Assembly: GCA_003852775.1 (NCBI GenBank)
Contig: RDDZ01000035.1
Span: forward strand, 1-64,000
Direction of reading: 5' to 3'
DNA from: Microbacteriaceae bacterium
GTDB lineage: Bacteria; Actinomycetota; Actinomycetes; Actinomycetales; Microbacteriaceae
Length of the DNA stretch: 64,000 nt
A program made the translations under genes and the position numbers. Each line of letters opens with the position of its first letter. Within the stretch, counting starts at the first letter, position 1. Shown in pieces: positions 54,248 through 58,439 of this stretch. Below the pieces are notes generated by a model. The model was given only the letters and a program-made list of their open reading frames with translations, was not told the origin of the DNA and ran no database searches.

Positions 54248-54266
54248 CCCGCCCGCCGCCTGTCTG

Positions 54267-54300
54267 AACGGCTCTCCCGACCCGGGGGAGCCGTTCTTTT
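54267..54300 (+). terminator. Rho-independent terminator after ispG
   Basis: AACGGCTCTCCC-GACCC-GGGGGAGCCGTT followed by CTTTT; 12-bp stem with one U.G wobble. Confidence 0.9.
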
Positions 54301-54483
54301 CATCCTCGCCACGGCCTGCATCCCCCGTTCGGGGGAGAACTGGGGGTTCCCGTACCCCGATGCGTCCCCCAAACTGGGAGATGTACCCCTCGGGGTGGTG
54401 TCAATAGCGTTGACCCCATACGAGCAGGGCACCGGAGCCCGGACCTCGGATCCGCCTCTGCCGTACGAGCAGGAAGAAGGATC

Positions 54484-55185
54484 ATGACCGGTAACCGAGT
54501 CGGTGCGCGCCGAGCGCGCACCCGCAACAAGGCGCTCGCCCTCACGGCGACGGGCGTCGTCCTCGCCGCAGCCATCACGGTCCCGTCGCTCGCGGCGTGG
54601 ACCGACATCGAGTGGGTGATCGGCGGCGCAGGCGCCGACGACACCACGGGCGGCGGCATCACGGCCTCGACGTTCGAGGTCGAGCAGGCCGCCCTCCAGG
54701 ACGGCGAGAACTTCGGCCACTACGAGACCGAGGCCGGCGCCAACGTCATCAGCTTCGGTGACGCCGCGGCAGCGCTCACCCCGGGCGACACCGTGTACGC
54801 CTTCGTGCGTCTTCGCACGGTCACCGGCTCGCTCGGCGGCACGCTGACGCTCGCGGCCGACACCGACACGTCGACCAACGCCCTCGCGGACGTCCTCACC
54901 TACGGTGCGCGCACTGTCGCGAGCCCCGCCGCGTGCAACGCCGCGGGCTACACCGGCGCCGGCAGCAACGAGCTGCAGGCCCCCGGCACGCCGCTCGACG
55001 AGGTGGCTCCGACCGCGACGTTCTCGCTCGGCGCCGCGACCGCCGCGGCTCCCGGCCCCGAGGTCGTCGTCTGCTTCGCGCTGACGCTTCCCGACACGCA
55101 GGCCATCCGCGACAACGACGCCCTGCAGAGTCTCTCGGTCGCTCCGGTGTGGCACTTCGACGCCGTCTCGGTGTCGACGCCGTAA
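54484..55185 (+). CDS. SipW-dependent-type (alternate) signal peptide, TasA-like secreted protein
   Basis: N-terminus RTRNKALALTATGVVLAAAITVPSLAAWTDIEWVIGG; next to SipW-like peptidase; SD aggaagaagga. Confidence 0.75.
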   Translation: MTGNRVGARRARTRNKALALTATGVVLAAAITVPSLAAWTDIEWVIGGAGADDTTGGGITASTFEVEQAALQDGENFGHYETEAGANVISFGDAAAALTPGDTVYAFVRLRTVTGSLGGTLTLAADTDTSTNALADVLTYGARTVASPAACNAAGYTGAGSNELQAPGTPLDEVAPTATFSLGAATAAAPGPEVVVCFALTLPDTQAIRDNDALQSLSVAPVWHFDAVSVSTP

Positions 55186-55213
55186 GTCACCTTCAGGCGT
55201 CACGCCACCCCTC

Positions 55214-55819
55214 ATGATCCTCACGAACACCGCCGAGCGGACGGCGGACGACGTCTCCCCTGACGTCGCTCCGTCGTCCGCCCGGCGGCCCCGCGTCCTC
55301 AAGACGCTCACGCTGACCCTCGCGGCCGCCGCGGGGGCCATCGTGCTGCTCGCCTCCCTCGCGCCTCTCGCGGGGATGCGGCTCGTGCGCCTCGAGACCG
55401 GGTCGATGGCCCCCGGCTTCCCGGCCGGGTCCGTGCTGCTCGCGCGTGACGTGCCCGCCGTCGAGGCGGCGCCGGGCGACATCGTGACGGTCATGCGCTC
55501 CGACGGGTCTCCCGTCACCCACCGCGTCGTGGAGACGGCGCCCGCCGGAGACGGCGCGCGCCTCATCCTCAAGGGCGACGCGAACGATCAGGTCGACCCC
55601 GCGCCGTACCTCGCGACGCGCGTCGGCCTCGTCCTCGGCGGCATCCCCTTCGGCGGGCAGCTCCTCGAGGCCGCACGGACGCCGTTCGCGACGCCCCTGC
55701 TCGCCGTCGTCGTGAGCCTGCTCGTGCTCTGGGCCTGGTGGCCCGAGCCGCGGACCCCCGCGCACCGGGCCACGCCCGAGCGGGGCCTCCGCCGTCGATC
55801 CGAACGGCGGCCCGCATGA
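55214..55819 (+). CDS. SipW-like (ER-type) signal peptidase I
   Basis: LETGSMAPGFPAGSVLL (catalytic Ser), APGDIVTVMRSDGSPVTHRVVE (His in place of Lys), LKGDAND; N- and C-terminal TM segments. Confidence 0.85.
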   Translation: MILTNTAERTADDVSPDVAPSSARRPRVLKTLTLTLAAAAGAIVLLASLAPLAGMRLVRLETGSMAPGFPAGSVLLARDVPAVEAAPGDIVTVMRSDGSPVTHRVVETAPAGDGARLILKGDANDQVDPAPYLATRVGLVLGGIPFGGQLLEAARTPFATPLLAVVVSLLVLWAWWPEPRTPAHRATPERGLRRRSERRPA

Positions 55820-56523
55820 GCGCCCGCACGACCCGCGCCGCGGCGGTCGCTGTGCTCGTCGGCTTCTCGCTCGCAATCGCCGCTCCGGCTGCCGCCGACA
55901 TCGTCGACAACGGAGCTCCCGGGCTCCTCACGATCGAGGTCGAGCCGGGCACGATCTCACTCGAGCTCTCGCCGGGCGACCGCGGCGACTGGCTGCTCAC
56001 CCCGCGCCTCGACGCCGACAGCTCGAGCGATCTCGAGCTGCGCGTCGAGAGCGAGGGCGACCTCGCCGCCCACCTCGCGGGCCTCCACATGAGCATCGAC
56101 GAGTGCTCGGCCGCGTGGATCCCCGGTCCGACGTCGAACGCGGCCGCGACGTGCCCCGGCACGGCCACCCAGCTGTTCCCCTCCACCGCGGTCGCGGCGA
56201 TCGCCGTGGGCGACAGGTTCGACTTCGGCGAGCTCGCGACGGGATCGCAGCGCTACCTCAGGGTGGTCTTCGAGCTCCCGGACGGAGCGCCCGACGAGCT
56301 TCAGGGGACCGACGCGCGCGTCCTGCTCGGCTTCGCGGTCGCGGGGGACTCCGTGACCGTCGACAACGGCACCCCCGGCGCCCCCGGCGGCCCCGGCTCC
56401 GGCAGCATCGCCCAGACGGGCGCCGCGATCGCCCTCCCGCTCGGCATCGCCGCCGCCCTCGGCGTGGGCGGTGCCGTCCTGCGCGTGCTCGCACGTCGCG
56501 AACCCCAGGAGAGCACCTCATGA
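55816..56523 (+). CDS. secreted surface protein with C-terminal IAQTG/TM/positive-tail sorting-like signal
   Basis: Signal peptide VAVLVGFSLAIAAPAAA; C-terminus GSGSIAQTGAAIALPLGIAAALGVGGAVLRVLARREPQESTS. Confidence 0.7.
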   Translation: MSARTTRAAAVAVLVGFSLAIAAPAAADIVDNGAPGLLTIEVEPGTISLELSPGDRGDWLLTPRLDADSSSDLELRVESEGDLAAHLAGLHMSIDECSAAWIPGPTSNAAATCPGTATQLFPSTAVAAIAVGDRFDFGELATGSQRYLRVVFELPDGAPDELQGTDARVLLGFAVAGDSVTVDNGTPGAPGGPGSGSIAQTGAAIALPLGIAAALGVGGAVLRVLARREPQESTS

Positions 56524-58361
56524 GGATCGTGAAGCGCTCCTCCCGCAAGGTCGTCGCCACGACAGCCTCGGTCGCGCTCGCGGCGGTCCTCGCCGGTACC
56601 TCGCTCACGGCGAGCTCGGCGTCGCTCACCGACACCGAGTACGACACGAGCGTCGTCGGCGCGCTCGGCTGCACCGCCGACGAGCAGCGCGGCACCAGCA
56701 CGGCCATCGGAAAGCTCCTCGGCGGCACGCTCCTCGGACTCGACCTCGACACGCTCGCCGAGGTCAAGGGCGTGCGGGCGACGGATGACGGCGAGGGCAC
56801 CGTCCCCGACCCGGCGAGCGCCGTCCTCGTCCCCGGAAGCGACGGCGATGCCTACCAGAACCCCCTCGACGTCGAGCTGCTGTTCGATGTCCTCGAACTC
56901 GACCTCACTGCTGCCCTCCTCAAGCTCCCGCTCCAGACCGACCTGGGCGCGTACGGGCAGTACGCACGCGCGAGCGCCGACGCCTCCTCCGCGGCGGCGG
57001 CGGGCCTCGTCGACCAGGGCGGCAGCATCAACCTCGCGGCCTTCTCCGCTCCGCCGGAGGAGCGTCCGGGCTTCGCCCGACTCGAGCTCGGCGGCCTGCT
57101 CGAGGCGGCGCTCGGCGAGTCGCTCTCGAGCCTCGTGTCGGGGCTCGCCGACCTGCGCCTCGACATCGGCGCTGTCGCATCCGCCGCGTCCCTCGACGCC
57201 TGCGGTGCCGCCTGGCAGGGCGACGTGTACGACGGCCTCGAGCGCGACTACGCGATCGCGGGCCTGGACCTCGACGTCGACTCGCCCCTCGTCGGAGGCC
57301 TCACGAGCACGGTCGACACCGCCCTCGGCGGGCTCGAGGCGGGGCTCACGGCCCTCGCAGGCGACCAGGGCCTCCTCGACAACCTGACGGGGGGCGTCGT
57401 CGGCGTGCTGGGCGGCGTGCTCACGATGGTCGGTCTCGGAACCCCGACGGCCACCCTGTCGGTCACGCCCGACTTCTCGGCCGTGCGCAACCTCCTCACC
57501 GACACGATCTCCGACGACGGCGGTGTCGTCGAGATCGACCTCGCGACCGGGGTCATCGGCGTGGACCTCGCGGCCCTGCTCGGCTCCGTCTACGGAACCG
57601 ACGGTCTCAACGGCCTCCCGCCGAACACCGAGCTGCTCATCAACGACACCGTCCTGAACGCGCTCGTCGCCGCCGTCGGGTCGGCGCTCGACGACTGGGT
57701 CGCCCACGTCCTCACGGCGATCGACGAGGCGCTCGACCTCGTGCGCGTGAAACTCGACATCCGGCTGCCCCTCGCGGGCGACGAGGGCGGCACGTCCTAC
57801 GGGCTCGGCACCCTCGTGGTGCACCTCGACGCGAGCCTCGGCTCGATCCGCGCGGGCACGGCCTCGGTCACGACCTCCTTCGAACGCGCCGTCGGCCTGT
57901 GCTCGATCGTCCTCGTCGGCCTCATCCTGTGCGGACTCGTCGACACCGTGCTGCTGCTCGTCAACGGGGTGCTCGCCATCCTCGGCGATACGCTGCGCGG
58001 CGTCCTCGTGCTCGCGCTCGACGGGGTCATCAACCCGATCGTGGGCTCGCTCGGCGCGACGCTCGCCGGGGTGACCGCCCCCATCGTGACGCTCCTGGGG
58101 GCGACCCTCGGCGTGCTGTTCGGCTCCGACGGCCTCGTCGGACTGCTCGTCAACGCGCAGAACGACCCCGACCCCGCCGCGGTCGGCGCGGGCCCCGAGC
58201 CGGACCCCTGGGCAGGCCTGCCCGGTCCGGTCGCGGGTCACCCGTTCCAGACGGGCCGGTACGACGTCGCCGCATTGCGCCTGAGCGTCATCGGCGGCAT
58301 CCAGGCGGTCGAGGTCGAGCTCGCGAGGTCCGCGGTCGGCTCCAACGTCGTCACCGGCTGA
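56520..58361 (+). CDS. choice-of-anchor G-type secreted protein
   Basis: Signal-like VATTASVALAAVLAGTSLTASSASLTDTEYDTSVVGAL; Ala/Leu/Asp-rich body; part of the SipW cassette. Family name from memory. Confidence 0.65.
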   Translation: MRIVKRSSRKVVATTASVALAAVLAGTSLTASSASLTDTEYDTSVVGALGCTADEQRGTSTAIGKLLGGTLLGLDLDTLAEVKGVRATDDGEGTVPDPASAVLVPGSDGDAYQNPLDVELLFDVLELDLTAALLKLPLQTDLGAYGQYARASADASSAAAAGLVDQGGSINLAAFSAPPEERPGFARLELGGLLEAALGESLSSLVSGLADLRLDIGAVASAASLDACGAAWQGDVYDGLERDYAIAGLDLDVDSPLVGGLTSTVDTALGGLEAGLTALAGDQGLLDNLTGGVVGVLGGVLTMVGLGTPTATLSVTPDFSAVRNLLTDTISDDGGVVEIDLATGVIGVDLAALLGSVYGTDGLNGLPPNTELLINDTVLNALVAAVGSALDDWVAHVLTAIDEALDLVRVKLDIRLPLAGDEGGTSYGLGTLVVHLDASLGSIRAGTASVTTSFERAVGLCSIVLVGLILCGLVDTVLLLVNGVLAILGDTLRGVLVLALDGVINPIVGSLGATLAGVTAPIVTLLGATLGVLFGSDGLVGLLVNAQNDPDPAAVGAGPEPDPWAGLPGPVAGHPFQTGRYDVAALRLSVIGGIQAVEVELARSAVGSNVVTG

Positions 58362-58439
58362 GTCGTCGGGTGGCGGCCGCGGGTGCCGAGCCCTTCGTCC
58401 GACACGGGAGGATGAGCCGCACGCGACTAAAGTGAACGG

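Follow-up and report, generated by a model that had tools for sequence, protein, structure and literature searches.

The 64,000-nucleotide (nt) stretch analysed here (contig RDDZ01000035.1 of assembly GCA_003852775.1, from a soil-type Microbacteriaceae bacterium), hereafter called the window, carries a cassette of four forward-strand genes between ispG, upstream, and proS, downstream. The cassette occupies most of the ispG-proS gap (54248-58439) and probably encodes a surface fibre with its own signal peptidase. Gene 1 (54484..55185; P0001, 233 amino acids, aa) is predicted to encode a TasA-fold fibre subunit with a SipW-type signal peptide, the proposed shaft. Gene 2 (55214..55819; P0002, 201 aa) encodes a SipW or endoplasmic reticulum (ER)-type signal peptidase with two transmembrane segments. 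The product of gene 3 (55816..56523; P0003, 235 aa) combines an AxA signal, a predicted TasA-fold domain and a sortase sorting signal, and is the proposed wall-anchored base. Gene 4 (56520..58361; P0004, 613 aa) encodes a choice-of-anchor G (CAG) protein with a SipW-type signal and without C-terminal anchor, the proposed tip or adhesin.

Genes 2 and 3, as well as genes 3 and 4, overlap by 4 bp (ATGA), and the four-gene set therefore reads as a putative single operon. An intrinsic terminator of ispG on the same strand (54266..54296, a 14-pair stem followed by TTTT) separates transcription of ispG from the cassette. The leader of gene 1 contains a 13-nt direct repeat, C-C-[AG]-TACGAGCAGG, also on the forward strand, with copies at 54416-54428 and 54461-54473. 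No upstream regulatory motif common to the window and other loci was found beyond shuffled controls.

The gene 2 product passed the TIGR02228 model (62.2 bits, cut-off 51.85), and its best match in the PDB was the human signal peptidase subunit SEC11C. Residues S64 (codon at 55403..55405), H103 (55520..55522) and D122 were invariant among 17 homologues, giving a Ser-His rather than a Ser-Lys enzyme; ordinary bacterial signal peptidase I has a Lys at the place of the catalytic His. The two transmembrane segments (residues 34-50 and 158-174) are flanking. The threshold of the Bacillus SipW equivalog model NF046067 was missed (53.5 versus 190 bits). Judged from its sequence, gene 2 is a Ser-His signal peptidase of the ER/SipW type. 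The gene 4 product passed NF033766 (choice_anch_G) with 211.2 bits for a cut-off of 45. In gene 3, the IAQTG sorting motif (56407..56421) precedes a transmembrane segment (residues 198-214) and a basic tail, and the protein scored below the cut-offs of the LPXTG hidden Markov models. A preliminary description of this DNA had placed four open reading frames at 54484-58361 between ispG and proS, and had read in them a Ser/His peptidase, an IAQTG protein with membrane segment and basic tail, and a choice-of-anchor G-type protein; coordinates, flanks and all three assignments were borne out. As a separate observation, residues 455-550 or so of the gene 4 product form a long hydrophobic glycine-rich stretch with several transmembrane-like hydropathy segments and two cysteines, in a protein expected to be secreted.

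The genome also codes for a general signal peptidase I and for one class E sortase (NF033747, 222.8 bits), the housekeeping type. A second SipW locus lies on contig C140 (L053, 1195-5091); its cargo is different (TIGR04089, 138 bits) and bears another signal motif (YWNAST), and the locus has its own IASTG-anchored protein. Three cargo-like proteins at this locus have Y-[WL]-[NS]-A signals, one of them being the TIGR04089 member and one having a lectin-like domain; its SipW is not fused, and CAG is absent. That each of the two SipW enzymes has its own set of cargo is consistent with dedicated peptidases.

Conservation of the gene set and division of anchoring

Among 200 Microbacteriaceae genomes, 75 carry CAG and 72 a gene 1 relative, which was also detected in 23 of 297 genomes of the class. 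In the Microbacteriaceae loci that were fetched, window included, SipW adjoins CAG in 24, and the order 1-2-3-4 is complete in 21 of these 24. When GTDB contigs were scanned with gene 1, 79 named loci emerged. In every one of them SipW lies beside the gene 1 relative (75 by gene calling, four by tblastn), and all four genes are present in at least 43 (40 by gene calling, three more by tblastn). The genes flanking the cassette differ widely between loci, the order 1-2-3-4 being kept across unrelated contexts. The preliminary description had named a lack of joint conservation of the four genes as refuting its reading; the constant pairing and the retained order do not bear out such a refutation.

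The closest named relatives are Homoserinibacter species (L074, L075), and in two Homoserinibacter relatives the cassette also lies in the ispG-proS gap. In two congeners (G181 and G127), small lipoprotein-like genes take the place of the cassette in this gap (L188 5303-5871; L189 2178-3162): one in G181, whose ispG is 99% identical, and two in G127. Since the flanks vary and these congeners are without the cassette in the gap, the cassette is either mobile or has been lost repeatedly, and its site is variable. In 8 of 25 loci, the cassette has as a neighbour a gene for a LuxR-family STAND ATPase regulator of some 890 aa (for example L033 10603-13290, L036 10435-13107, L051 2926-5601 and L063 2703-5141), with none beside the window copy. 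This regulator may control the cassette where the two are adjacent.

SipW continues into a gene 3-like anchor as one open reading frame in 28 loci, found in Cellulomonas, Brevibacterium, Leucobacter, Kocuria, Zhihengliuella, Agromyces, Micromonospora and others. Past the peptidase, the fused protein shows an internal signal-like segment with an AxA site, which a loose pattern found in 26/28, then a domain like that of gene 3 and, in 27/28, a sorting signal; comparison of profiles aligns this second region with the gene 3 family (Prob 99.1, E 1.4e-18). To explain the fused state, 3-4 changes are needed on the SipW tree; fusion or fission therefore occurred more than once. Cellulomonas has the arrangement gene1-[SipW::anchor]-CAG. 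Most other fused loci are gene1-gene1'-[SipW::anchor] without CAG, so that the constant core appears to be shaft, SipW and anchor, CAG being optional. In Brevibacterium, Kocuria and Arthrobacter, the SipW-anchor gene, whether fused or not, is followed immediately by a gene for a further small protein of 160-172 aa with a SipW signal (L119 8692-9210, L128 8638-9132, L137 7863-8351); this protein possibly replaces CAG at the tip.

We then compared sorting signals, scored as motif plus transmembrane segment plus basic tail, between the families. They were present in 43 of 46 gene 3 homologues (anchors) and in 27 of 28 SipW-anchor fusions, and in none of 106 gene 1 relatives or of 45 CAG proteins of the named loci. 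Gene 3 thus has the features of a sortase substrate of the LPxTG/LAxTG type, its use by a sortase being putative. Among Microbacteriaceae CAG, the sorting signal was found in 0 of 24 SipW-linked and 10 of 15 unlinked proteins (Fisher p = 5e-6), although this p-value and the one given below for linked versus unlinked CAG are inflated by sequence relatedness; for the sorting signals, the split is free of exceptions. Solo CAG have AxA or Tat-like signals; SipW-linked CAG have neither such a signal nor their own LPxTG-type anchor. Because sorting signals split in this way, anchoring appears to be delegated away from CAG: the protein is seen without its own anchor wherever the SipW set supplies a separate one. 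Three CAG proteins (L058, L061 and L062) have a twin-arginine-like signal, clearest in L061 and L062 (RRS...A), no SipW neighbour and no sorting signal, and represent a third export route for the CAG family.

Shared N-terminal motif and predicted folds

Genes 1 and 4 share the motif [A/S]-W-x-D-x-E-[W/Y/F] at positions +1 to +7 of the predicted mature N-terminus, with positions +4, +6 and +7 common to both. On the basis of motif statistics, the mature N-terminus and candidate donor strand is predicted to be encoded by the codons for A38-W-T-D-I-E-W44 in gene 1 (54595..54615), where the TasA 28-38 register also agrees, and by those for S35-L-T-D-T-E-Y41 in gene 4 (56622..56642). The W/L-T-D-x-E motif occurs in 111 of 120 gene 1 relatives and in 49 of 58 SipW-linked CAG, far beyond chance, which substantiates the earlier remark that two cargo candidates share an A/S-x-W/L-TD-E pattern. 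An aromatic residue is found at +2 in all 111 motif-bearing gene 1 relatives, W in 110 of them. In Microbacteriaceae, the stricter form [AS]-W-x-[DEQ] was present in 19 of 24 SipW-linked and 0 of 15 unlinked CAG (p = 8e-7), and most of the five linked exceptions are near variants (SLTD in the window, ASWGG, TWND, AWVA). The W+2/E+6 motif is absent from gene 3, whose signal is of the ordinary AxA type.

In TasA, the donor strand consists of residues 28-38 and starts at the SipW cut, and the N-terminus of TapA resembles this strand (PMC9674648). TasA F29, at +2, packs on P62 in a conserved "proline box" (PMC10151520). We verified the TasA residue numbering against the 8aur structure. The preliminary description had treated the motif as the end of the signal peptide (VPSLAAWTDIE, SASLTDTE). 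The TasA register TWA|AFND speaks for the opposite side of the cut, and by this analogy the motif is placed at the start of the mature protein.

Sequence searches assigned no family to gene 1 at the cut-offs of Pfam and NCBIfam, and Pfam and PHROGs gave nothing above cut-off for genes 1, 3 and 4. PF12389 (camelysin/TasA) had no match in the organism's own genome or in Pfam scans, and a search of PDB sequences with the gene 1 profile returned chance matches only. For TIGR04088 (SipW-dependent signal, cut-off 19 bits), the window gene 1 scored 14.4, Homoserinibacter 18.6 and most tested orthologues in the equivalent position 25-38. AlphaFold2 models were built from 57 homologues for gene 1 and 35 for gene 3; both have a confident globular part, roughly half of each model reaching a predicted local distance difference test score (pLDDT) above 90. 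When the gene 1 model was compared with all PDB entries using Foldseek, the AbpA bundling pili ranked first (7ueg, E 8.1e-4, prob 0.99), followed by the TasA fibre (8aur, E 4.9e-3) and FimG with donor strand, and lower by PapA, the Saci 0406 filament and CanA. The gene 3 model matched the TasA fibre best (8aur, E 5.9e-5, prob 1.00), with CanA and the Saci 0406 filament next. At the level of the fold, a TasA-type beta-sandwich is therefore predicted for genes 1 and 3. The preliminary label "TasA-like" for gene 1 thus holds for the predicted fold and fails for sequence, where no Pfam or NCBIfam match reached its cut-off.

Profile comparison found genes 1 and 3 remotely alike (Prob 83-87) and CAG unlike either. 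In the PGD proline box, P100 is invariant in the gene 1 family (57 sequences), and P53-G54 are kept in at least 90% of gene 3 relatives. Homology of CAG to TasA-like domains was rejected (hhalign Prob 0.1), an apparent match having come from a profile that the shared signal peptide had contaminated.

A proposed fibre and its alternatives

We consider it fairly probable that the cassette encodes a sortase-anchored, TasA-type donor-strand surface fibre with a dedicated signal peptidase, made of a CAG tip, a gene 1 shaft and a gene 3 base. We infer the cleavage site, the donor-strand polymerisation, the polarity, the use of sortase and the role in adhesion or matrix formation. SipW (gene 2) would cut the signal peptides off the products of genes 1 and 4, exposing a new N-terminus A/S-W-x-D-x-E-W. 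The exposed strand would insert into the beta-sandwich of the next subunit by donor-strand exchange, as in TasA. The distribution of the W+2/E+6 motif and the PGD box over the three families suggests that CAG is donor only, gene 1 both and gene 3 acceptor only. Gene 1, with donor strand and acceptor sandwich, would form the repeating shaft; gene 3, with a sandwich, the PGD proline box and an AxA signal but no donor motif, would accept the last strand and be fixed to peptidoglycan as the base by the class E sortase. Gene 4, which carries the donor motif on a large body of unrelated kind and lacks an anchor, would cap the far end as tip or adhesin. The suggestion, made from the first reading of this DNA, of a small surface-fibre or matrix system with its own peptidase gains support from the co-conservation of the genes and from the fold searches with the models of genes 1 and 3.

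Several observations weigh against this reading. Sequence profiles of genes 1 and 3 did not significantly detect TasA (hhalign), and the N-terminus of the gene 1 model is of low confidence (pLDDT below 50 over residues 16-53). The Foldseek TM-scores of genes 1 and 3 are modest (0.3-0.4), and the assignments are therefore to fold class, resting on ranking and on the agreement of two models rather than on close superposition. Some anchors show A-[FL]-x-D after the signal, so that the label "acceptor only" for gene 3 is not clean. About 24 loci with a fused SipW have no CAG, and two loci (L064, L065) have three-gene sets of gene 1, SipW and CAG without a sortase anchor; tip and base roles are therefore not universal. 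Finally, rather than a donor strand, the motif could be an element by which SipW recognises its substrates.

This last possibility, with A-W-x-D-x-E-W as a recognition tag and CAG merely co-secreted and outside any fibre, is somewhat unlikely. The motif does sit at the predicted cleavage site, NCBI models SipW-type signals as such (TIGR04088), and the C140 SipW locus has another motif, YWNAST, on its own cargo. However, the motif extends to +7, past the usual contacts of signal peptidases, and the same residues form the donor strand in TasA. The two readings of the motif are not exclusive and can both hold.

A secreted matrix or adhesin set without fibres, in which SipW processes separate surface proteins acting alone and the TasA-like fold is a generic beta-sandwich, is less likely still. 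It would agree with CAG being sortase-anchored single proteins in the absence of SipW and with the low TM-scores to TasA. Against it stand the pairing of SipW with a gene 1 relative in 79 of 79 loci, the donor-strand filament subunits that came first among all PDB entries, the agreement of genes 1 and 4 at +4, +6 and +7, and the absence of an anchor from gene 1 (0/106), as for a subunit held by another protein. A SpaA-like pilus polymerised by sortase, in which SipW would be an accessory peptidase, is highly improbable: a class E sortase and one subunit with a sorting signal are present, but the presumed shaft has no sorting signal in 106 of 106 relatives, and the cassette contains no pilus-specific sortase, the one sortase found being of class E.

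It is possible, though less likely than not, that sortase-anchored donor-strand fibres form a widespread actinobacterial class with parts that are donor only (CAG tip), donor and acceptor (shaft), and acceptor with wall anchor (base). Peptidase and wall-anchored base are one polypeptide in many genera, and the peptidase may therefore mark the assembly site.

Relation to known systems

The cassette resembles tapA-sipW-tasA of Bacillus subtilis in having a dedicated SipW, a TasA-fold subunit with an aromatic residue at +2 and D at +4 of the mature N-terminus, and a minor anchoring or assembly partner whose gene overlaps sipW (PMC10151520, PMC9674648). It differs in that its partner protein combines a sortase signal with a predicted TasA-like fold, a large CAG is added, the gene order is different, SipW and anchor are fused in many genera, and gene 1 is undetectable by TasA/camelysin profiles. 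TapA is not conserved even within Bacillus (PMC10151520). In Clostridium perfringens (sipW-bsaABCRSD) and Bacillus cereus (sipW-tasA/calY/capP), SipW is likewise combined with one or more secreted filament subunits and a role in pellicle or biofilm; these systems are reported to be sortase-independent (PMC7395162, PMC13082335), whereas sorting signals are constant here. AbpA of Pyrobaculum calidifontis (7ueg), the best structural match of gene 1, is a donor-strand filament, but is archaeal and without the SipW-anchor-CAG set. The actinobacterial SipW systems with a TIGR04089 "alternate-type signal peptide", such as the C140 locus, share SipW, SipW-type cargo signals and a sortase-anchored neighbour, and differ in cargo families and signal motif. 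Gene 4 is a full member of the choice-of-anchor G family NF033766, of which solo members have their own LPxTG-type anchor and SipW-linked ones do not.

SipW, SipW-dependent signals, choice-of-anchor G and class E sortase are already known as single families in NCBIfam. In open-access papers, we found nothing on the combined set in actinobacteria, on the SipW-anchor fusion or on a sortase-anchored TasA-type fibre; SipW together with actinobacteria returned reviews and Bacillus-type papers only, and SipW together with Microbacterium or choice-of-anchor returned none.

Bacillus, Clostridium and archaea are known to have TasA-type fibres, whose attachment to the cell is debated. A sortase-anchored base of TasA fold would be a covalent answer to this question. 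The choice-of-anchor G family, so far unexplained, also gains a likely context from the cassette, and CAG proteins that lack their own anchor when the SipW system provides one would amount to a natural experiment in how such proteins are anchored. Plant- and soil-associated genera that carry the set include Clavibacter, Curtobacterium, Microbacterium and Leifsonia.

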